Shown one piece after another: positions 1 through 13,562 of a DNA stretch of 64,000 nt (position 1 is the first letter of the stretch; the number at the start of each line of letters is the position of its first letter). The translations under genes were made by a program, and so were the position numbers. Origin of the DNA: Beverwykella pulmonaria. Taxonomy: Eukaryota > Ascomycota > Dothideomycetes > Pleosporales > Melanommataceae. The stretch covers positions 2,119,690 through 2,183,689 of the forward strand of contig BCHH01000008.1 in the NCBI GenBank assembly GCA_001599595.1. The letters run 5' to 3'. The notes under the pieces were generated by a model. The model saw only the letters and a program-made list of their open reading frames with translations. It did not search any database and was not told the DNA's origin.

Positions 1-327
1 AATCCTAAACATGTTAGCACCTTCACACCTAAAAATTACTATTGTGTTGTTGTTGCCGCGCCTAATATGTAGAGAGCATCCTTTTGTTGTGAAATAGACT
101 TCTCCTGCTACAGTATTATTATAACACTGGTCAACGTGGAAGGATGCTCTTTCCTGTCTCACCTCACACTGCCCAGGCCCACCAGCGCTATCCGCGATGC
201 CGGCGCAGAGCATTGCTCGTGTATCTGGTCGGGCAGTGTCACAAAGTCGGACGAGACCAGATCTCTCTCCAAAACCCTTGTGCAAGCTAATTGCGGTCAA
301 AACAATGTCGATCATGCCCGAATCCGC

Positions 328-3300
328 TCATACCCGACACTTATGCCTTGTCCTCAGGGCGTCCAAGATGGTTCTGCAAATGGCGAGCCTGATATCTTTC
401 TCATCATGTTCCTGCACGGTCATACCATCCAGTAAGATCCAAGGCGTAAGACAATGGTACTTGTTTTCTCTCGCCGACATTCTCGCGAACACAGCCGACA
501 TGCCATCAACCTGGCGCAAAACCTCATTACTGCCAATCACGTTACGGATATCGGGCTGCATGGAGAAGTCGATTAGTTGAGCTGCGACACCTGCGGCAAT
601 GATAGTTGAAAAAGATGTTCCTTTAAGAGGTTTCGTGTTTGGCAGTTGGATATCTTCACCGAGGATGGCGAAGTTGTATGCTGAATCCATGGGAGCAGGG
701 TTGAATTCGCAAGTTGGCTTGGCGCCCGCCGTGGTGGAGAATAAACAGAAAAGGTCGGAGAATCGGGAGAGCCACGCGGGGAAGAAGATTCCAGCTGTAT
801 TTCCATAGTTTGAGGCGGCGGAAAAGATGAGAACTTTGGAAGGTTTGGCGTTCAAGATGGCGTTTGCGATTGGTTGATATTCCGATTTGAATCCAGATGG
901 TAGGCAGATTACGTCTACTCCCCATCCTTTCGCTTTGCATATCGCGTGCTTGATTGCCTAACTAGATTGTTAGCTTGGTGTTGATATGAAAGTTTCTTGT
1001 AAACTAACGGTTTCCATGTATTCCTTTGTTTCGGGAGTTGCATCCTTGGTTTTGAAGACTCGTCCGACATATATTTCTGCATCTTCATATACCTTCTGGA
1101 GTAGGCGAACACATGATGTCCCATGACCAGTACCATCCTGTCTTATATTGTTTCTACCAGAAACAAAGTCCTTATAGTCTTTAATGCTCTTGGTACAGGA
1201 CTGGTCATTTTGGTAGTATGTTTCGTGGACGCCTGTATCCAGGATAGCTATTTTAACGGACCTCGAATGCTCGTCTCTCTTGTGCTGGGTTATCCTGAGT
1301 ACATCGTTTAAGTCGTCTAGCTTCGCAAACCAATCGGTGGATGTGAAAGATCTGCAGCATTTGTTTCATTAGAGTGTTTCCCGGATCACCGAATTTGAGA
1401 CTCACGACTTTACGCTCATGGTGGACCCTATCCGAGCCGTTGAGCCATCAGTATCAGCGATGCTGTTTGTTGATGTTAGGACAGTTCCGGCGGAAGAAGG
1501 AGGCAACCTGTACGTCATACGCGTTGCTAGTGATGAAGTTTCAGCGGTGTTGGTACCATAACTAGCTTCATCAGCTTGTAACAAATACATCTGCCTGCCA
1601 TCTTGCGCTGCATGCGAAAGTGATGGAGGCGCATTGTCGAGTGCTACCGGGTCCATCCGCTGGTAATCTGCATCAGACCAAGCTAATTCCATGAACGTCT
1701 TGAAAGGTCTAACCACTCTTTGGTAAAAGTTATGTCGTAGATCTTTCTCTACATTGCCAAGGACTTCCGTGTCCGCCTTTATACATATCTCGATAGACTC
1801 TTTCACAGGCTTCCAAATGTCTTTTGGTGGCCAAAGTTCTTGATCATTGAGTACTTTGGTAGACATGCTGTGTCGTATGTTGACAATATCTGAATCTTCG
1901 CCATCTTGGGTTGTCAAACTCTCGAGTTTGCGATCTAATTCGATCTCAAGTAACATGATGCCAAGTGCGAGTAATTTTGGATACTGATGCGTCCTCGTCC
2001 GAACTTTGGGACCTTGGGTTGTCTTTCGAAACATCTTTTTCCGGTTTGAGGATTTGCTTTGTTCTGTCGATTGTCGCGTTTTATCTCCATGGTCGCTCTT
2101 TTTGAAGCGAGCCTGAAGAAACGGTTCATGAACAGAAATAAACTTTGGATAACCGTTGACTGTGTCGAGCATAAAATGAACAGATTCTTTACTCCAGTCA
2201 TCCTGCATCCAATCCGATTCGCAATACTGCCAGAATGTACGTACCAGAAGGAAAGAAAGCGAAAGCTTCATCTTGTCACTAAGTTTCCCGGTTCCTATCA
2301 GATCCTCAAGGCGAATACCCATAGAACTCCTCAGAAATGACCTTTCCGGTTGACTAGACTTTTGCAGCTTGAAGTCTGTGGCGTATTCAAACCTATATTG
2401 GGCCACAGTGTGTTTTGCGAGATACTGACAAAGCTCGTCCGCCTCATTCTCGTCAGAGGAGGAAGTTTGATCCGTATCTCCGAAATCATGCGAGGTGTCC
2501 TCTAGATTGGGCAAGCAATCTTCCTGGGAATTCTCCAACAGTTCCAGGAGATTTGAAGCCCGGCTGGAAGGAATATTGAACACGACTTGTTTCCTTTTCG
2601 GGATGCAGACTTGGATGTCTTGCCAATGGCAATGCTTTCCCAAACCGTCCGATATACCCATTTTGCTGATGATAACGAAGAGTCCAAAGCATAGGGTATC
2701 ATTTTCTTTGGAAAGTTCGCACCAATTCAACCGAAGGTTGACAACTATTGATTTCCAGTCGTATGGACACCTCTCGGGCGTGAAATGTTGAGACAGAGCA
2801 TCATAAAGCTGTAGTACGAAGTTCTGATTGTCCTCGGGCTCTTCCGTCAATGTAGCGAGTTTCGTCAACTCTGACAGATCCGGGCCCTTCGATTCGTTCT
2901 CGGGTGCTGATAGAGTGTTAAATGCATTGATCATGTTTTGCCACAGTGTATTGGCTGCTTTATCACGGTGTGGAGGTGATTTTGCGCCCGCAAATTGGAC
3001 TAGTATGGCCTTGACAGAAGTGCGAGATTCCAGTAGTGATTTGAGAGTGGGGTATTGGCTTGCGCTGAAACAAGCGCTAGCTTCACGAGTGTACTTTAAT
3101 TCCGCGGGACATGGCCACTGCACACTTGGTTAATAAATGTCCTTGTGATCCATGGTCAAAAGGTGGGAAATATGCCAGATTTAGGCCTATTCTAAACGAA
3201 ATTAGGCCAGCAAAATGCTTTTCAGTCCAATGCAAACGGGCAACTCGACGGCGCCTTGGGTGGGCACCATTGACTTAGACTTCAGCCGGTCAAGGCATCG

Positions 3301-3714
3301 ATCTGATGTGATGGAGACACTCGGATGCCGACCCTGTATGCATTCGAAAGATTTACATTACCTCGCCAGGATAATGACAGAACGAAAATAGTCGGATAGC
3401 AAGGCTCTTACCTGGCACAGAACCTCCAAGCAGTCTAGGAGGGTTAGAAGTCGGTTCTGATTAGATCGATGCGGTAGGCCATTCAGATACTCGGGCATAG
3501 ACTCGAGGAAGGAACAGAAAACGCCTTTGAACAGCGCGACACCTGGCCCCGGTGTTAGTTGAGCGGCCTCTGACAGAAGCTTCTGCGCGACAGCCTGAGC
3601 AAATCCTGGGAGGGGGAGGGAATCGAGGTCTGCAGTCTGCGGTGGCGACGACTCTTCCACTTTAAGACTCCATGGTGAGACTGGTCGGGCTATTTTCGTG
3701 AGGTAGCTGAGCAT
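328..3714 (-). CDS. DUF7580-subtilisin-like serine protease (S8), HET-Q2-like candidate
   Basis: Predicted intracellular S8 protease. Best exon chain on the minus strand: 3714-3412, 3117-1406, 1351-1009, 957-328; all junctions keep frame, giving about 995 residues. The last three exons are solid (introns 1405-1352 and 1008-958 start GTGAGT and GTTAGT). The first exon and its 294-bp intron are tentative. The large exon carries a DUF7580-type region (SMGIRLEDLIGTGKLSDK, DDWSKESVHFML, LLALGIMLLEIELDRKLESL), a domain known from fungal HeLo and nonself-recognition proteins. The C-terminal part has the full subtilase triad: Asp in ILDTG (codon near 1239), His in GHGTS (near 1125), oxyanion Asn in SAASNYGN (near 810) and Ser in GTSFST (near 615). 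There is no signal peptide, which argues against a secreted digestive protease. It is divergent from the gasdermin-like gene at 4203, the known pairing for activator proteases of fungal gasdermins. Family assignment is firm; the partner role is inferred. Confidence 0.8.
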
Positions 3715-3885
3715 AGTGGAAGCAACTCACGGCATCGATCGTAGGTTGGGAGGACCGTCAGGTTGAGGGAGGTGCAGGATGACAGCTGGTCCGTGTGGGC
3801 GCTAACGGAAGCCAGACACACTGTCCAGACACACAGACACAGACACAAATCATAGACACAGACAGATACAGATAGACATAGTTAG

Positions 3886-3964
<79 letters not shown>

Positions 3965-4202
3965 TATATATTACGGATAGGAAGCCAAAAACAACTGTAA
4001 TTCTAGTTTTAAGAAGACTTTGACCACCCTCCTAGTTTGAGCTTGACCTGTACGTAGTTACGGTAGGGCTGATGTGCGGAAAGCCAAGAGAGGCCCCCAC
4101 GGCAAGCGCTTGAGGCAGAGAACCCGGTCACTACAAAAGCGGGCACCCTAGCCACCAAACACAAAACCCATCCTATGTCTCATTGACATTTCGCGAATAA
4201 CA
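3715..4202. promoter_or_regulatory. shared divergent promoter region of protease and gasdermin-like genes
   Basis: This 488-bp stretch separates the start of the minus-strand protease model from the plus-strand gasdermin-like start codon. It must hold at least the gasdermin promoter, and both promoters if the protease really starts at 3714. A plausible splice donor (GTGAGT, minus strand, near 3730) leaves room for a further upstream protease exon. The middle is filled by a long CA microsatellite. Confidence 0.5.
3891..3962. repeat. (CA)36 microsatellite
   Basis: This is an uninterrupted run of 36 CA units. It is preceded by about 80 bp of imperfect CAGACA/GATAGACA-like repeats (3812-3890) and followed by an AT run. 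It lies in the divergent promoter region. Perfect dinucleotide tracts of this length mutate quickly in length, so isolates should differ here. The open frame across it on the minus strand (Cys-Val repeats) is only the translation of the repeat. Confidence 0.98.
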
Positions 4203-5247
4203 ATGGAGAATTGCTGGTTTCGCTTGAAACAAACTCATTTCCCGCCCCCGACGCTGCCGACTGACACCAATGGCGTGGGCAAAGGCAATGGCGCCATCTG
4301 TCCAGGCCACATCTTGGCGAGTCTGAAAGATTTGGATCACATGGACAGTATCGTCAACCGATCAGTCGAAGGGTTTATGTTCACGCCCGCGGTCCCAATA
4401 TACACGACCGGAGCATGGAGGATGGAGTGGAAGGAAGGTGAGATGCATCAAACTGGAGTCTCTGGTATGTTCCCTTGTGATATTAGTTGGAGGCAAGTTT
4501 AGGCCTCAAAAAGATCTCGTTTTAGCTTACTCCTCTTGTTCGAAATTTGAGCTAAGAAGAAATTGCTGACTTGTGACCCAATTTTAGCGGATGCTAAAGT
4601 TCCCATTGCGGAAGTCGCGGGCTTGTCTGCCCAAACAAAAGTTGCTCTGGCATTCAAAGAATCAGTCCACAATTACCGTGCTTTTAACAAGCTGGACCGT
4701 TATATCATCGGACCAACAAGAGGATATATTAAGGATGTGCTTGAAGACAAGGAGGTAGAAAGTCATATCGAAAGAAACAAGACTTTAGGCGCCTGGTCCA
4801 TAATCATGATAACGGGCGTTGCAATCGCCCGTGGCTCTCAAGGATCAAGTTCCGAGAGTCATGGAAGATCTGGAAATCTGGGCGGGGGAGGGTAAGTCTG
4901 AGGCGTTGTTTGTTGACTTTAGCATATTTACGGCTAACAAACACTTTGGTAGGAACCTTGCGGGCGCGGCATCGGGAGAGCTGGCTACGACTACTGCCTC
5001 TCAAAGCGGAACTTCAATGTCGACGAGCGTCGAGTCGGACTTCGTGTGGGCTGTCCGAGTCAGTAAAATCTGGAAGGGCACATTAGACCGGACATGGTCT
5101 TTCCGCACGCAGTCAAAGGGTGCCACATTCTCGTTGGAGGACGAAGAGCACAACAAGGAAGAAGTCGCTCAAGTACTGGAAGTCGAAGGGAAAGGGGAGG
5201 CAAAGAAGGCCTGGCTTGGTGATGGGGATGAGTTCTTAGTGTTCTAA
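4203..5247 (+). CDS. gasdermin-like pore-forming protein (HET-Q1/RCD-1 type)
   Basis: Candidate cell-death effector of the fungal gasdermin family, in which an N-terminal beta-rich domain makes membrane pores after a short C-terminal tail is removed. Three exons: 4203-4464, 4588-4891 and 4953-5247 (donors GTATGT and GTAAGT; acceptors TTTTAG and TGGTAG); all junctions keep frame, giving 286 residues, the usual size for fungal gasdermins. Family-like stretches are GKGNGAICPGHILASLK near the N-terminus, GAWSIIMITGVAIARGS, and DFVWAVRVSKIWKGTLDRTW followed by KGATFSLEDEEH. Between the last two lies a Gly/Ser/Thr-rich linker of about 50 residues, presumably a disordered loop. The tail after KGATF is acidic and would be the inhibitory segment. 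There is no signal peptide or classical membrane helix. Its divergent neighbour is an S8 protease. I assigned the family from motif memory, size and context, so a profile search is decisive. Confidence 0.72.
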
Positions 5248-5334: not shown

Positions 5335-5870
5335 GTTGCGCACATATGAATGTTGCGCACTCCCACCAAATCGATCACAGTCTGTAAAACCTCAATTTTC
5401 TCAACTATTCCTACAGCGCTTGCCATTCAGTACACATAGATTCAAAGATCCTAGCTTCTACACCACCTGCAACCAATTTGACAGTAATCTTTGGTTTTTT
5501 GGCGACGTTCTGCTCCTCCTCAGCGTCCAATTTGCAAATTGCCTCCATAGCTATATCTGCACTTGCAAATCGTCGGTTTGGGTCAATTTGAACCCACTTT
5601 CGAGCCTTAACAGAGCCTATAGCTTATAGCTGTAGTTGATATAGCTTTTGAACAGTCTCAAGCTCTGCTGCACTTGTGTTCGCTATAGAGAGTGCCTTGC
5701 TCGCTTTCTAAAAGACAAGCCGGGTCGTACAAGAGAGCTTTTCAGAGCGATAGAAGTACTGTTGCGCGCAGTATATATCGCGAGGTCCTGTTAGAGCTGC
5801 AAAGACCTAATCGGTATCATAGAGTAGTTGTTTATAGCGTGGTGGCGTAGATGGCTGCTAGCAGAGCTGC
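5335..5870 (-). mobile_element. remnant of a DDE transposon, 3' end with transposase C-terminus
   Basis: Read on the minus strand, roughly 5620-5411 is open and encodes a transposase-like C-terminal tail (RKWVQIDPNRRFASADIAM, then KITVKLVAGGVEARIFES) ending in TAG at 5413-5411. Beyond the stop lies a direct repeat of GTTGCGCAC (5335-5343 and 5352-5360) next to a TA-rich boundary, which looks like a transposon end. The upstream part (5630-5860) is broken by stops. The tail resembles pogo/Tc1-mariner-type fungal transposases but not the copy at 11.6 kb. Family is uncertain. Confidence 0.5.
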
Positions 5871-5872
5871 GT

Positions 5873-6034
5873 GTGAGGGATACTTCTGCGGAAGCCCCTC
5901 GGAGGCCTATCGGGCCGTGTGTCTACTAGTCACGTGACACACACATATGTGTATTCTCTCTGAATCCTCTGAGCTCCTCAAGGATTCATCTGATCCATAT
6001 CTTCGTTCTGTTCCCTGCCAGTACTGCTCTCACA
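5873..6034 (+). repeat. left copy of diverged inverted repeat flanking the NLR locus
   Basis: Aligns by eye with the reverse complement of 14103-14302. Shared landmarks in the same order are GGGATACT, GGAGGC, CCTCGG, GTGTGTCTA, GTCACGTGACACA, TCTGAATCCTCT or TCCGAATCCTCT, CCTCAAGGATTC, CTGATCCAT, CTTCGTT and CTGCYCTCAC. The right copy is longer because of internal indels. No coding potential. It may be a solo LTR or a MITE-like repeat; the family is unknown to me. Confidence 0.8.
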
Positions 6035-6235
6035 AGGATGAGCTTTCTGAAAAGAGTATGAGATTGAGTAGTAACCAATGTATTGCTAATTATGAATCAA
6101 GGTTGAGCACGATCTACCATAAGGGTATATCACGCGGTCTATATATACTTCGATGTCCCAGGCTTTCTCAGGTTGTTCCAAGGTTTCTCAGGTATGGGAT
6201 TCTGTGGGAATCTGTGGAACTCACGTGACTTCGCT

Positions 6236-6597
6236 TATAGTGATACTGTATACTTGACGCGAAATTTCGTATCACATTCCTTGTAGGCGGCAAGTAACGT
6301 GCTGTGAGTCCTTCTATATACTCGACAAACTCCTGCTCTTGTTATGGGTGGAGTTTTTGATGCGTAGATGCACTTGCACGCAGCGCTGTAAGAGTTCAGT
6401 GCCTCCGTGTAAAATCTCGCTCCCTTTAAGCATCCTTACACTCCGCGACAACGTTGACTGATCAGTATCATGCCTTTTTAGCTATTTTCGTATAGGGGAA
6501 TTCTTCGCCAGGCTTCAATAGAGCTCATTTCGTGGAGTTATGATGTGTTGAAATTTTGACGTGTTTAATGTTGCGCGTGCATTGAGTGCACGGATAG
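6236..6597 (-). mobile_element. truncated 5' end of a Fot1/pogo-like element
   Basis: The reverse complement matches the 5' part of the complete element at 11604-13714: inner terminal repeat (around 6570-6592), the leader, the transposase start and the first part of its helix-turn-helix region. It lacks one of the two 18-bp terminal sub-repeats, has a deletion of about 30 bp just after the transposase start, and carries a separate 33-bp insertion (6408-6440). It points right, so its 5' end faces the NLR gene. Non-functional. Confidence 0.85.
6408..6440. other. 33-bp insertion with 5-bp target duplication
   Basis: Absent from the homologous position in the complete element. It begins TGTAA, ends TTACA, and is bounded on both sides by CTCCG (6403-6407 and 6441-6445), which occurs once in the complete element. 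TG...CA ends with a 5-bp duplication are the signature of integrase- or transposase-mediated insertion, but the insert is far too short to be a normal element. It could be a solo-end relic or an excision product. Confidence 0.6.
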
Positions 6598-6712
6598 GAA
6601 ACTGGTAGCGCCCTTGCGAGCCAGCTGCCGTTTCGATTCCGCCCACCATCCTCAAACGCTAGACGCAGGTTTGCGACCGTTACGCCCGACCCGCGATAAA
6701 CGTTAGAGCCAA

Positions 6713-9700
6713 ATGTCCATTAACACAGATATACGCAACCGCACACTGAACTGTATCGAGTTATTCAAAAAGTGTTCGGTGAATCTTGCACTTGGCTGGG
6801 TCGAAAGATGTCAGGCTGACTTTAATCTCTGGACCTATGGGCTGAAAGCAACTTCGACGGGAAAGTCATCACTCGACTATCGTGTCCGGGAGCGCGAAGA
6901 CGTGCGCAACGTGATTTGCGATCTCCTCGATGGATTGGCGGAGTCGCTACAGAGTTGTCTGGAGGTGTCGACAGAGCCCGACGGAGTGGAAGACCTGGAG
7001 TTTGACATCAGGACTGTTTTGAAACAGCTTTCTCGCATACATATCGCGATTCGAAGGACCGGAACTCATTTGCGACACCAGAGAGCTGATGCTACGCTGG
7101 GAGAAGCACTCGGTACTAAAGATTTCATAGATTGGAAAGAAGATATGAAGAACCTAATCCTAATGGGGATCGAGAACAAGAATCGAAAACAAGGGCTCGA
7201 GGAAGGTCGAAGCGTGAATCATACCCAGCAGAGGACTTTAAGCGAGGTTCAAGAGCGTCTCATTCGTGCAAATCTTTTACGTCGACATCGAATGCAATAT
7301 GCACGAGCAGCCTTGGAGAAAACTAAGCGGAAGGATGTGGAGCGAATGCTCGAGGAGGCCATCGAACCCGCGCCACTGAAACCACACGTGGCAGCTGCAA
7401 TCATCGAACCCGAACGGCTCGAACGTAAGGATCAAGGCCCAGTTGAAAGTCATCCCATCAAGAACCCACCGGTAAGCGAAAATCAACAAACAGCGACAGA
7501 TATTCCGTCGAAGTTCAAAGTTCCCCTTGCGAATTCCCGCAGGTCTGGTACGATCATTACGAAGGCGACGCAGACTGGGCGGGAACAGAATTACCCTCGT
7601 TGGCATAGAGATTTGGGAGCTGATGGCAATGTTTTGTGCCCGTACTGTGCAGAGCCGCTATCCAAAGACTACATTAGTAATGATGCCAGATGGAGGTTCG
7701 TAAGACCCTTTGACATCTGGATACAGAGTACTGCGCTAACATCAGTTCGCAGAGGACACCTCGCAGGAGATCTTACACCATACATCTGCATCATGGATGA
7801 TTGCAAGACGCCGGAGCTTATGTTTGTCACTACTGAGGATCTGAACAAACACATCCTTGGCGAACACGGCAGCTATCGTTGGGTGTGTAATTACTGTGCA
7901 AACGAGGCTGACGAGCTACACCGCGATGACACTTTCACATACGACACAGCTGAAGACTGGGTAAACCACATTAAAGATGATCATCTCCCGAATATACCAG
8001 TATCACAACTTCAAGAGCTGTCTACACTCAGCCAAAGGAAATTTGTCCAGCCCATAGAGTGTCCACTTTGCGATGTTGCTATTTCTGCTATACAAGCCGA
8101 ACTGGATGCGCATATAACAGGCCATCTCCACTCTTTTGCATTAAGAGCGCTTCCTTGGGGACTTTCGCAAGGCTCCCATGAATCTGACACACCGCGATTG
8201 TCCGCAAGAATCGAATTGGAAACCTCTCACGTGTCTTCCAAGTGGGAACATCTCAGTAACCTTTCCGATGTAGAATGGCCGGGTCACGATAATCCGGCGA
8301 TAAAGAACTGGAGCGACTGGCAGGACATGAAAGATGAAGCTTTCATCAGAGAAAATTTCATAGAAGATTGGATACAGGACCTTCAAGACTTCTTAGCATC
8401 AGATGAAGAACTATCTGATGGTTCAGGACTCGCATCAGATGAGGGAAAGTTCCATCGTGCAGTGCCTAGGAAGGGGCATCCGGATACGCTGATCGGCATG
8501 GCCAACCTGGCGTCGCCGTACAGCAATCAAGGGCAGTGCAAGGAGACCGAAGAGCCGTGGATCGCAGATGAACCCGAGACCCCGGCGGCGCCTTCCTGCG
8601 CCGTTCCATTCCGCCGGGACACCGACTTCGTCGATCGCGGAAAGCTGCTTGATCAGATACGCAAGAAATGCTCTGCGCCGGCATCATGGATAGCGCTGGT
8701 AGGCCTGGGCGGCATGGGGTGAGCTAGGAGAACCCTTAGCAAGTGTAGATCGCTAACACAGACACAGAAAGTCGCAACTCGCCATCGAGCACTGCTATCG
8801 AACCGCGGATGAATCTCCAGAGACGTGGGTGTTCTGGGTGCACGCCTGCAACGCAGCCCGCATCGAACAAGGCTACCGAGACATCGCAGACCAGGTCAGG
8901 CTGGCTGGCCGGAACGATCCGCAAGCGGACGTGTTTAAGCTTGTTTTTAACTGGCTTCGCAACGGAAAGAATGGAAAGTGGTTGCTAGTCCTTGACGGCG
9001 CCGACGATACTGATGCTTTCTCTCTACCAGCAAGCAATGACCTGAAGGTACAGGCGAGCAGCGGAGATGGTACTCGCCCACGCTACTTCTCATCGTATCT
9101 GCCCATGAGCAAGAATGGCTCGGTTTTGATCACTAGTCGGACGAGGAGCGTGGCGTTGCAGCTAGTGGAGGAGAGCAATATCATATCTATTGAGCCTATG
9201 GACGACGCCGGCGCACAAGATCTTCTGCAAAAGAAGTTGGTAGAGGAGGTAGATAAAGAGACCACTGCTGAACTAGCAAGGGCCCTCGAGTTCATGCCAC
9301 TTGCTCTTGTGCAGGCGGCGGCGTACATCCAACAATATGCACCTCGGTGGTCGGTGCGACGATACCTAGAGGAGTTCTACAAGAGTGATAGGAATAAGAT
9401 AAGCCTTTTAAACTACAACGGAGGCTATCTTCGGAGAGACAACGAAGCTAATAACTCTATTCTTATAACTTGGCAAGTCTCGTTTAATCATGTACTCCAG
9501 GAAAGGCGGTCAGCAGCAGACTTATTGTCATTAATGAGCTTCTTTGACCGGCAGGGGATTCCTGAAGCGCTTCTTCGCAATCAAAATAGGACAGGAAACA
9601 GAAACAGGAGTATAGAAGCTTGTCATGCAAACAACATAGACAATAACAGCGACAATAGTGGGTTAGAAGCTTACATTGACGACAGGTTTGAAGAGGATAT

Positions 9701-11497
9701 TCTCACGCTAAGGAACTACTCGTTTATTAGGGTCACTACTAAACATACCACGTTCAACATGTATAGGATTGTGCAGCTGGCCATTCAGAAGTGGTTAGAA
9801 GGGCAGGGTCAATTAGAAAGGTGGAAGCAGCAGTACATTAGTAATCTTTGCACAGCATTTCCAACAGGGGAACACAAGAACTGGCCCCAGTGCCAGGCGC
9901 TCTTCCTGCATGCCAAGTCAGCGCTGTCGCATCCGCCTAAATCTGAGGAATCCCTCCAACAGTGGGCTTTATTGTTGTACAATGCAGCGTGGTATGCGTG
10001 GAGAAAAGGACGTCTAGACGATGCTAAGAAACTGTCAGTCCAGTCAATGAAGGTTATAAAAAAGCTGCTTGGTAAAGAGCATACAAACACGTTAAGCAGT
10101 ATGGCGATGGTAGGGCTCACAGTGAATCTTGCAGGCCAGTGGAAGGATGCTGAGGAGCTGGAGGTTCAAGTCATGGAGACAAGAAAGAGGGTGCTTGGGG
10201 AGGAGCATCCAGACACGCTGACTNNNNNNNNNNNNNNNNNNNNNNNNNNNNNNNNNNNNNNNNNNNNNNNNNNNNNNNNNNNNNNNNNNNNNNNNNNNNN
10301 NNNNNNNNNNNNNNNNNNNNNNNNNNNNNNNNNNNNNNNNNNNNNNNNNNNNNNNNNNNNNNNNNNNNNNNNNNNNNNNNNNNNNNNNNNNNNNNNNNNN
10401 NNNNNNNNNNNNNNNNNNNNNNNNNNNNNNNNNNNNNNNNNNNNNNNNNNNNNNNNNNNNNNNNNNNNNNNNNNNNNNNNNNNNNNNNNNNNNNNNNNNN
10501 NNNNNNNNNNNNNNNNNNNNNNNNNNNNNNNNNNNNNNNNNNNNNNNNNNNNNNNNNNNNNNNNNNNNNNNNNNNNNNNNNNNNNNNNNNNNNNNNNNNN
10601 NNNNNNNNNNNNNNNNNNNNNNNNNNNNNNNNNNNNNNNNNNNNNNNNNNNNNNNNNNNNNNNNNNNNNNNNNNNNNNNNNNNNNNNNNNNNNNNNNNNN
10701 NNNNNNNNNNNNNNNNNNNNNNNNNNNNNNNNNNNNNNNNNNNNNNNNNNNNNNNNNNNNNNNNNNNNNNNNNNNNNNNNNNNNNNNNNNNNNNNNNNNN
10801 NNNNNNNNNNNNNNNNNNNNNNNNNNNNNNNNNNNNNNNNNNNNNNNNNNNNNNNNNNNNNNNNNNNNNNNNNNNNNNNNNNNNNNNNNNNNNNNNNNNN
10901 NNNNNNNNNNNNNNNNNNNNNNNNNNNNNNNNNNNNNNNNNNNNNNNNNNNNNNNNNNNNNNNNNNNNNNNNNNNNNNNNNNNNNNNNNNNNNNNNNNNN
11001 NNNNNNNNNAGCTAGAGGTGCAAGTGCTAGAGAAGAGCTCGAGGGTGCTTGGGGAGGAGCATCCAGACACGCTGACCAGCATGGCTAATCTGGCATCGAC
11101 GTACAGGGATCAAGGCCGGTGGAAGGAGGCCGAAGAGCTGGAGGTGCAAGCAGTGGAGATAAGAAAGAGAGTGCTTGGAGAAGAGCATCCAGACACGCTG
11201 ACTAGCATGGGCAACCTGGCGTCGACGTACAGGAATCAAGGCCGGTGGAAGGAGGCTGAGGAGCTAGAGGTGCAAGTGCTAGAGAAGAGCTCGAGGGTGC
11301 TTGGGGAGGAGCATCCAGACGCACTGATCAGCATGAACAATCTCGCATTTACGTTCATGTGCCAATCTCGCAATACCGACGCTATTATACTTATGGAAAA
11401 ATGCGTTCAACTACGCCAACACGTCCTAGGTCCTCAGCATCCACACACAACATTATCACTACAAGCTTTAAATGGGTGGCGGATGGAGAACATGTGA
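6713..11497 (+). CDS. NLR: C2H2 zinc fingers, NB-ARC, TPR repeats (internal gap)
   Basis: STAND/NLR-type receptor. Exons are 6713-7695, 7753-8718 and 8768-11497; the second intron splits the P-loop Gly codon and restores GLGGMGKSQLAIEHCY. The known protein is about 1,135 residues before and 161 after a run of N (10224-11009). Order: N-terminal region of about 300 residues; Cys/His clusters of AcuF-like C2H2 type (VLCPYC; WRGHLAGDLTPYICIMDDC; RWVCNYC...HIKDDH; IECPLC...HITGH); a linker holding a TPR-like fragment (8472-8563); NB-ARC with Walker A, Walker B (WLLVLDGADD), GSVLITSRTR and MPLALVQAA; then 42-residue TPRs of the kinesin-light-chain type (RVLGEEHPDTLTSMANLAS). The last three complete repeats are nearly identical in DNA, the pattern of repeats under concerted change in fungal nonself-recognition NLRs. 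The N-run length does not preserve frame between its edges. The first intron (7696-7752) is a multiple of three and free of stops, so retention would go unnoticed. Confidence 0.9.
8472..8563 (+). repeat. isolated TPR-repeat fragment inside the NLR linker
   Basis: Encodes KGHPDTLIGMANLASPY, then SNQGQCKETEEPW. This is collinear with the 3' TPR unit EEHPDTLTSMANLASTYRNQ and GRWKEAEEL, and the DNA is also alignable (GCATCCNGANACGCTGA, GGCATGG, AACCTGGCGTCG, ACGTACAG-like). It sits about 2 kb upstream of the array, between the zinc fingers and the NB-ARC domain, as part of the reading frame. Confidence 0.85.
10015..11460 (+). repeat. TPR-encoding tandem repeat array (126-bp unit)
   Basis: The period is 126 bp (42 codons). 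One diverged unit starts at about 10015, the next is cut by the gap, and three full units plus a diverged capping unit follow the gap. Alternating unit types (EKSSRVLGEEHP and EIRKRVLGEEHP) suggest higher-order duplication. The array is almost certainly longer than assembled. Confidence 0.9.
10224..11009. other. assembly gap (786 N)
   Basis: Run of N within the TPR array. The codon phase on the left (ACT ending at 10223) and on the right (CTA starting at 11012) differ relative to the run length, so 786 is an estimate, not a measured length. Confidence 0.99.
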
Positions 11498-11603: not shown

Positions 11604-11647
11604 CCGTGTCCGTGCACTCAATGCACGGATTCACTCAATGCACGCGC
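11604..11647 (+). repeat. left terminal inverted repeat of Fot1-like element
   Basis: Perfectly complementary to 13672-13714, with TA just outside. The internal duplication of the CACTCAATGCACG motif makes each end a double site. Confidence 0.9.
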
Positions 11648-11691
11648 AACATCAAACACGTCAAACTTCAACACCCCATAACTCCACGAAA

Positions 11692-13562
11692 TGAGCCCTA
11701 TTGAAGCTGCGCTTGCAGAGCTAGATGCTCTGAAGCCTGGCGAAGAATTCACCTACACAAAAATAGCCAAAAAGCATGGTGTTGATCGGTCAACGTTGTC
11801 GCGGAGGCACTGAGCTGTTACAGCGTCGCGTGCAGCCAGTGCATCCACGCGTCAAAAACTCAACCCACAACAAGAGCAGGAACTTGTCAAGTACATAGAA
11901 GGACTTACAGCTCGTCACCTGCCGCCTACAAGGGATATGATATGAAATTTTGCATTAAGCATAGCAGGAGAGCGAGTGAGCGAGAGCTAGGTTACGCGCT
12001 TTATTAACTGACACAGCATCCACCTCATCTCTCAATGGGTGACAGGTATGGACGCCAATCGCCACAACGCTAATTCTGGTGATAAGTACAAGCTGTACTT
12101 TGATCTGTTGCAGCACAAAATTGCTAAGTACAACATTAACGTTTGTTACACATACAATATGGATAAGAAGGGCTTCTTGATTAGTATTATTGGCAGGTCA
12201 AAACAGGTGTTTAGTAGACAGATGTGGGAGAAGAAGGAGGTTACAGCATTACTTTAAGATAGCAATTGCAAGTGGATTACCCTCCTAGCGTGTGTGTGCG
12301 CTGATGGATTAGCTCTGCCGCCAGGCCTTATCTATTAGGCAGCTGGCAAAGCTATACAATTAAGCTGGGTTGAAGATATAAAGGCTGGAGAACACTTAGT
12401 ATTTGTTACCTTATTGCCCTCTAGCTAGACAAATGATGACGTAGGGATAGCTTGGCTTGAACAGGTGTTTAATTGCTACACCAAGAAGAAAGCTTGAAGA
12501 AGTTACTGACTATTAATAGTTGATGGCCATGGGTCTTACCTAACAATAGATTTTATTGACTACTGCGACAAGAACAAGATACTACTAGCTATCTTTCCTC
12601 CTTATTTAACTTACACGCTTTAGCCTCTGGATGTGGCGTGCTTTAAGCCTCTGTCAACTGCATACTTAACTAAGCTATTAGCACACCTTTACTAAGCCTA
12701 GGGACTGCTTGCTATTACAAAGGGTGACTTCTTTACTCTATTCTAGAAGGCCTAGGTGAGCAGCTTTGTTAAGATAACAATTCTTAACTCTTTTAAAGCA
12801 ACAGGTATAGCACCCCTCAACCCCAATGTTATACTTAATAGATTTACTAACAACACCCTAGACGCCCTAGAATTGCCAGAGAGCTCTACGTTAGTACTTA
12901 GTGGAGAAGACTAGCGCAGAATAGAGAGACTTGTACGCACTATAGTAAAGGATTAGGGTAGTAAGGACGCGTAGAAGCTTAGCTGTTCGCTCCACCACAT
13001 TTTAGTTCAAAATAAGCTACTTTACCTTGAGATTAATGGACTTAGGGAGGTGCTCTTAGTTAAGAAGAAGCACAAGAAGAAGGGCAAAACTCTAGACCTT
13101 CAACAGCGCGAGGAGTACCATAGTAGAGCTGTCTTCTAGTCACCGCGCAAAATAAGAGAAGCACGCTATCGCGAGTTAGTGAAGGAGCAAGAGAAGAAGG
13201 AGCAGCAACTCCAAAAAGCTGAGACAGCCAAGTTGAAACAGGCTGCTAAGCTGTACAAGGAGAAAATTGCAGAGGAGAGGCGTGTGGCAAGGGCAGAGGC
13301 GGCGAAGGTTAAGGAGACAGAGAAGGCTAAAAAGGCAGCAGACCGCGCTTGTNAGAAGGAGGCTCGCGACGCTGCAAAAGCTCTACAATTATCCCAAAAG
13401 GGTAAGAGGAAGGCCTCACNGCTACCCACACAGAGCAGCAAGCGTCAGAAACGTGTGGTTGATGCTGCGGGTGCTGGGGAGGCCGCAGAGGCTCCCCCAG
13501 CTCCCCCACCCGTTATCACACGCCGCGGCCGCAACGTCAAGCTTCCGAGTAAATATAAGTAG
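11692..13562 (+). pseudogene. Fot1/pogo-like transposase, degenerate
   Basis: Starts with an intact helix-turn-helix region (FTYTKIAKKHGVDRSTLSRRH) followed at once by a stop. DDE-domain landmarks are visible across several frames: TYNMDKKGFLI near 12160, VDGHGSYLTIDFIDYCDKN near 12525 and PPYLTYTL...PLDV near 12600. Many positions where the family has Trp or Gln are TAG here, as CpA-to-TpA change predicts. By contrast the C-terminal Lys/Glu/Ala-rich coiled-coil tail from about 13160 to 13562 has no stop and ends ITRRGRNVKLPSKYK. Two ambiguous bases lie in this tail (13353 and 13420). Confidence 0.9.

Follow-up and report, generated by a model that had tools for sequence, protein, structure and literature searches.

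What does a divergent gene pair at one end of a 64,000-nucleotide stretch of Beverwykella pulmonaria DNA do, and does the functional unit end with that pair? The stretch (contig BCHH01000008.1, positions 2,119,690 to 2,183,689 of the forward strand) is called the window below, and coordinates without a contig or locus name are counted from its first nucleotide. The two genes encode a subtilisin-like protease of family S8 and a 286-residue protein, which an initial annotation had read as a cell-death pair of the het-Q type. It is highly probable, in our view, that they are indeed a fungal gasdermin (fGSDM) and its protease. Our best overall explanation, to which we assign a probability of about 0.75, is a regulated cassette formed by the gasdermin and a protease of the Q2L type, with a third gene that begins at position 6707 as the trigger.

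The gasdermin gene spans positions 4203 to 5247 of the forward strand and is predicted to encode 286 amino acids in three exons (4203-4464, 4588-4891 and 4953-5247), which are separated by introns with the boundaries GTATGT..TTTTAG and GTAAGT..TGGTAG. Like the protease gene model described below, this model was predicted from the DNA by means of open frames and splice sites; 78 open two-intron models were enumerated, two of them (286 and 290 amino acids) survived a splice-site filter, and the 286-residue version was chosen. When this protein was used as a single query against PDB sequences, phmmer returned RCD-1-1 (E = 1.6e-30) and RCD-1-2 (8.7e-30), and a profile of 21 gasdermin sequences (alignment A2) matched RCD-1 at 6e-73 and, at 7.3e-7, the pore chain of HET-Q1 (9uv9). 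Judged by sequence, homology to gasdermins is far beyond chance. Pfam assigned no family to the protein at E ≤ 10, and NCBIfam gave weak matches only, all below cut-off, for six proteins of the window or of loci extracted from the genome. Two listings of homologues held at least 7 and at least 63 proteins, and the closest among the matches listed, from Lophiotrema nucula, is 79% identical.

A structural match to gasdermins had been set as a test of the original proposal, and the fold was approached through a database relative, P0038, which is about 40% identical to the window protein. The P0038 model was built from 34 sequences with a mean predicted local distance difference test score (pLDDT) of 69.6. 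All 14 Foldseek matches of this predicted structure at E ≤ 0.001 are RCD-1 chains; bacterial gasdermins and GSDMD come next, but not significantly. The expected gasdermin identity of the 286-residue protein is upheld by its own sequence matches to RCD-1 and, through the relative, by a predicted fold.

The RCD-1 chains stop at about the point of a KGATF motif, beyond which the window gasdermin carries 38 more residues. This predicted inhibitory C-terminal tail (residues 249-286, encoded at 5131-5244 on the forward strand, net charge −8) directly follows Phe248 of the motif. Because 18 of 21 aligned gasdermin sequences have this Phe, because RCD-1 ends near it, and because HET-Q1 is reported to be cut at F238 with the loss of 40 residues (PMC10989679), we propose Phe248 as the predicted cleavage site. 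Its equivalence to F238 is extrapolated, as the HET-Q1 alignment reaches only to profile position 221, short of the F238/Phe248 region, and the last 18 residues of the P0038 model have a pLDDT below 50, too low to place the tail. A cut somewhere within the last 50 gasdermin residues is nonetheless what we would expect, with good though not full confidence.

The protease gene lies on the reverse strand at positions 328 to 3714, head to head with the gasdermin gene. The 488 base pairs (bp) between the two divergent start codons (3715-4202), which include a (CA)36 run of 72 bp at 3891-3962, form a common upstream region that possibly serves as a shared promoter. The gene model is one of 21 enumerated open models and was chosen for its introns (GTAAGA..CAG, GTGAGT..CAG and GTTAGT..TAG). 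The predicted product of 995 amino acids comprises a helical N-terminal region, a DUF7580 domain (residues 198-572), and an S8 subtilisin-like domain that begins at residue 702 and extends almost to the C-terminus, so that about 700 residues precede the S8 domain. Exon 1 (3412-3714) ends at the donor GTAAGA; exon 2 (1406-3117) contains DUF7580, which is detected on this open frame at 5.2e-14; exon 3 (1009-1351) carries the predicted catalytic residues Asp710 and His748; and exon 4 (328-957) carries the predicted oxyanion-hole residue Asn836 and the catalytic Ser901.

For the assembled protein, Pfam matches to Peptidase_S8 (2.5e-9) and DUF7580 (3.1e-13) are both above cut-off, and the catalytic triad and oxyanion-hole residue appear intact from the translated sequence. 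No signal peptide is apparent in the protease start MLSYLTKIARPVSPW, as judged by eye with no predictor run. The re-derived gene models agree with the initial annotation in the coordinates, strands and sizes of both genes, in the complete Asp/His/Ser triad, in the apparent lack of a signal peptide, and in the head-to-head arrangement. At least 29 homologous proteins were listed, the best full-length ones having the same two domains, and for the predicted fold of one relative, P0014, the PDB matches are filled by subtilisins.

If these two proteins work together, then their genes should be linked in other fungi, as had also been anticipated. We compared the length of the longest contig given for each record between the gasdermin list of at least 63 proteins and the protease list of at least 29, and took equal lengths to mean a common contig. 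Such contigs were found in Lophiotrema nucula (P0001 and P0008; contig of 1,681,003), Mariannaea sp. PMI_226 (P0006 and P0014; 2,477,575), and Endocarpon pusillum (P0046, GJ744_004803, and P0015, GJ744_004804; 36,312), as well as in a fourth case (P0076 and P0013; 132,060). The gene-to-gene distance is known for Endocarpon only, through its consecutive locus tags. In Plenodomus tracheiphilus, a gasdermin and a DUF7580-S8 protease stand within one gene model of 1199 residues (P0009), which is either a real fusion or an annotation merge of same-strand neighbors; this one-strand arrangement differs from the divergent orientation in the window. No protease partner for P0007 of Rhexocercosporidium (contig of 897,742) was present among the matches listed. 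Altogether, five of the 29 protease records are linked to a gasdermin among the matches listed, four by a shared contig and one by the joint record.

Two further gasdermin-protease pairs are present in the same genome (45.6 Mb, 31 contigs). A search with P0043 recovered the gasdermin of the window along with two weak matches, at C12:17740-18195 (9.5e-6) and C6:2056950-2057402 (0.011), each of which has an S8 match within about 0.6 kb, followed by a DUF7580 match. In both of the extracted loci, L014 and L015, the gasdermin-like gene is convergent with the DUF7580-S8 gene. The gasdermin profile, run against 1841 open frames from the window and from the extracted loci, detected the L014 and L015 genes at 2.3e-14 and 1.3e-16, and apart from the window's own exons nothing else in that search scored better than E 0.8; hhalign gave 98.2% and 96.7% for the two. 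Genome searches with five gasdermin queries revealed no further complete gasdermin gene beyond these three. A lone first exon in locus L031 (C7:855501-861500; positions 3016-3306, reverse strand) is 69% identical to the first exon of the L014 gene, but no remainder of the gene to which the lone exon would belong was found within 6 kb.

The original proposal was for a unit of two genes. The pair holds, but the description stopped short, in that the gene from position 6707 belongs to a family that recurs head to head with DUF7580 genes. The 5′ part of this third gene (6707-8722, forward strand), an open frame whose relatives show that arrangement, encodes a helical N-terminal domain, a C2H2-like cassette, and the start of a P-loop nucleoside triphosphatase (NTPase). 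The 3′ part (8757-11015, forward strand) encodes the NTPase, DUF7779, and TPR repeats, as indicated by Pfam on 8757-10223; matches to NACHT (0.0025) and NB-ARC (0.044) are both below cut-off. The C2H2 label was given by eye because the Pfam zinc-finger matches also fall below cut-off. Genome searches with the first 496 residues encoded by the third gene yielded 11 loci, and those with a relative from locus L020 yielded 16, for a combined 17. Only two of these 17 places are not beside a DUF7580 gene, namely C15:874722 and C17:117785 (three stops). The idea that the third gene is a chance neighbor was rejected for the family on the basis of this whole-genome search with two members, which does not thereby prove a function.

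The same association emerges when the search begins with DUF7580. This domain gave 29 genome matches, 26 of them above cut-off, and each of the 15 best of the 29 has a C2H2-family gene 0.9 to 4.3 kb away, in divergent orientation in 15 of 15 cases; none of the 14 lower matches has such a neighbor. Among 20,000 random placements, at most three of 15 were paired. Because duplications of a pair may have given rise to the loci, this test speaks for linkage that has been kept rather than for 15 origins. The C-terminal portions of the partner proteins vary, including a Pkinase domain (6.8e-28) in L017, a weak NB-ARC match in L019, ULD_2 in L021, and the TPR-type NTPase in the window, whereas nothing was recognized by Pfam in that of L020. 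Direct BLASTP among the partners at the three gasdermin loci matched the window protein to that of L014 (2e-10) and found no significant match for window versus L015 or L014 versus L015; the link of the third gene to L015 comes solely from the genome search with the window gene (E = 5.4e-5).

An S8 domain is present at three of the 15 pairs (window, C12 and C6), and a gasdermin was detected at the same three only. If the two features were independent, the chance that they fall on the same three of 15 would be 1 in 455. The 12 pairs that lack S8 have a different feature at the N-terminus of the DUF7580 protein. In 10 of them, a pattern search found a hydrophobic helix of the form MSGFEIAGxxLGxxPLIIxxLEHY; an eleventh, L030, shows it by eye and without an ATG, whereas L028 has no such helix (11 of 12). 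The S8 versions lack such a stretch, their best 19-residue hydropathy being 0.29 to 0.99 versus 1.34 to 2.37 in the helix versions; for this comparison the L014 and L015 protease starts were chosen by eye. Pfam recognized no family, HeLo and HELL included, on the three N-terminal frames scanned of DUF7580 proteins without S8. We infer that the helix may be a membrane effector comparable to HeLo domains.

These patterns, taken from one genome, suggest a module of sensor and receiver whose death outputs can be exchanged. In a tentative version of this idea, which we hold to be somewhat less probable than its negation, DUF7580 would act as the receiver in a fungal immune circuit of the plug-in kind, with the divergent C2H2-family protein and its variable C-terminus as the sensor. 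Most receivers would drive a necroptosis-like helix, and three would have lost the helix, gained an S8 domain and come to stand beside a gasdermin, an output of the pyroptosis-like kind. If so, one sensor/receiver logic is wired to two unrelated killing machines.

For the window, the following sequence of events is envisaged. The gasdermin would be kept inactive by its short acidic C-terminal tail, and the cytosolic multidomain S8 protease of the Q2L type would be kept off by DUF7580 and the N-terminal region until a signal arrives. That signal would reach the C2H2/NTPase/TPR protein, which would then act on DUF7580, both steps being drawn solely from the gene pairing. We put the chances that the third gene product is such an upstream sensor at even. 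The S8 domain would be released and would cut the gasdermin, most likely after Phe248 in KGATF, and residues 1 to 248 set free in this way would form membrane pores and bring about cell death. In the remaining DUF7580 pairs, the output of this receiver would be the membrane-active N-terminal helix instead of a protease and a gasdermin.

Several observations weigh against this explanation or against its wider form. The 15 pairs are not independent of one another, and the pairing of DUF7580 with the C2H2 family has been observed in one genome only. Regarding the nature of DUF7580, Pkinase was matched by none of 20 members in Pfam, the DUF7580 profile failed to align to the kinase found in one partner protein, and Foldseek (BFVD) brings up kinases only below significance (E of 0.044 and up). 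The gasdermin identity of the L014 and L015 genes rests on profiles, and a single-sequence PDB search with the L015 protein returned no gasdermin match. The truncated exon on C7 has no S8 or DUF7580 match nearby in the genome searches. The window gasdermin is situated between the protease and the third gene, whereas those of L014 and L015 are on the far side of the protease. Finally, 24 of the 29 protease records have no linked gasdermin among the matches listed, which come from a collection where many fungal genes are missing; this is not evidence of absence.

Some of these points favor the alternative that survives best, wherein the gasdermin and protease form a working cassette and the third gene is irrelevant to it. 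DUF7580 and the C2H2-family gene would then be an old co-duplicated pair with another job, for example controlling expression or holding the DUF7580 protein in check, while the gasdermin would have arrived together with the S8 versions. The pairing at 12 loci that lack S8, the position of the gasdermin inside the divergent partners in the window and outside them at the other two loci, and the assortment of partner C-termini are all as this account would have it. However, each of the three loci with S8 and a gasdermin has retained the pairing, and fungal cell-death pathways are described as typically having NTPase/TPR and kinase domains among their upstream parts (PMC12881547). We regard the alternative as unlikely on balance, though it deserves serious weight.

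The regulated-cassette explanation must also be set against a gasdermin of the RCD-1 kind, in which contact between two allelic variants suffices, no cut is made, and the protease is unrelated. Among the relatives with a solved structure, RCD-1 is closest in sequence, and it is stated not to be under proteolytic control (PMC12881547), but its variants are given there as 244 to 257 amino acids long. The window protein adds 38 residues, the motif before them is present in most of the 21 relatives, and a protease is linked to the gasdermin in other genomes, which together make this reading highly improbable.

Decay is a further concern, in that the frames could be open while one partner no longer works. 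Features of the surroundings bear on this point. An 85-bp piece at 152-236 (reverse strand), just beyond the 3′ end of the protease gene, shares 82% identity with the third gene's P-loop region (8645-8729) and is broken by stops; possibly another NTPase gene left this remnant, and further copies occur on C2 and C7. The third gene itself sits among dispersed repeats, because the stretch 5700-6640 has at least 54 genome matches. Together with the truncated C7 gasdermin exon, the NTPase fragment and the repeats indicate that such genes are indeed subject to decay in this genome. Within the window, on the other hand, the frames are open across all exons, splice sites are ordinary, and the catalytic residues are intact, such that a decayed or silent cassette is very unlikely. 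Least credible of all is a het-Q-type incompatibility locus whose genes act only once united from different strains, since, although the protein families are identical to those of het-Q1/het-Q2 and fungal gasdermins are portrayed as recurrent allorecognition genes (PMC12881547), one genome carries the two genes side by side and intact, the protease has 995 residues with DUF7580 versus 388, and a constitutively active pair within one nucleus would kill its carrier.

Other observations concern the third gene and the flanks. Its TPR part includes 786 N at 10224-11009, which may be an assembly gap, and the product of 6707-8722 has, at the start of its NTPase, a weak match, below cut-off, to a bacterial FxSxx-COOH TPR protein family (0.0024). 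Inverted copies at 6249-6588 and 11632-11963, 71% identical, flank the gene. At the C6 gasdermin locus, the C2H2-family partner in L017 (1345-4158, forward strand) has its Pkinase domain in the same frame as the cassette. Locus L012, 10 kb upstream of the window, includes open frames that by eye resemble a RecQ-type helicase (2889-4241) and a large membrane protein in which cadherin-like segments recur (5811-9566); both are ordinary neighbors.

A review (PMC12881547) counts the signals and sensors that act upstream of fungal gasdermin proteases among the major open questions. If a C2H2-family gene partners every DUF7580 gene, then it offers a concrete candidate sensor for one class of gasdermin cassettes. 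If the helix has indeed been exchanged for a protease and a gasdermin behind one receiver, this would show a swap between necroptosis-like and pyroptosis-like outputs on a shared input, for which a single genome offers internal controls. The gasdermin/protease pair belongs to a known kind; the constant DUF7580 partner with two alternative outputs is apparently new. Neither the DUF7580/C2H2 pair nor the term DUF7580 was met in the literature searched, which left subscription journals mostly outside and is weak evidence of novelty.

How does the locus compare with known systems? RCD-1 of Neurospora crassa (PDB 8jyz, 8jyx and 8jyy) shares a homologous pore-forming part and is the best PDB sequence match to the window gasdermin, but it acts through allelic variants, needs no cut, and lacks the C-terminal tail that the window protein and its relatives have. 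The 12 DUF7580 pairs without S8 can be compared with HET-S/NWD2-like and HELLP/PNT1 pairs, in which, as reviewed (PMC12881547), a membrane-active effector stands beside an NLR-type receptor; in the three N-terminal frames of such DUF7580 proteins that were scanned, Pfam gave no HeLo or HELL match.

In the het-Q system of Podospora anserina, HET-Q1 has 278 amino acids (286 in the window protein), the protease is likewise of family S8, and the tail is 40 residues long (38 predicted here). The reviews cite het-Q1 and het-Q2 as idiomorphs at one locus (PMC12881547) and het-Q as an example of a sensor made constitutively active by rearrangement (PMC10197012); the protease HET-Q2 has 388 amino acids (PMC10989679). 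The window has both genes together and a longer protease, so the label "het-Q-type" in the initial annotation is too narrow: a gasdermin with a linked S8 protease stands, and het-Q in the strict sense is not supported.

The nearest counterparts are the two-gene fGSDM/Q2L clusters. Most fungal gasdermins are reported to adjoin protease genes, with activation thought to occur by cleavage, as demonstrated in Podospora with HET-Q2 and with a protease of the TPR-CHAT type (PMC12881547, PMC10197012). In these clusters, as in the window, a gasdermin lies beside a multidomain S8 protease in one haplotype of an ascomycete-type genome, and the 488 bp between the start codons place the window protease well inside the 10 kb from an fGSDM gene that, together with an S8 or CHAT protease domain and its catalytic residues, was used to recognize a Q2L protease. 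The domains that the reviews name are ANK, TPR, WD40, NB, and "other predicted kinase-like domains", whereas the window protease has DUF7580 and is accompanied by the C2H2-like third gene. Because both genes adjoin in one genome and some 700 residues precede the S8 domain, the window pair has the appearance of a regulated gasdermin/Q2L cassette and not of an incompatibility locus.

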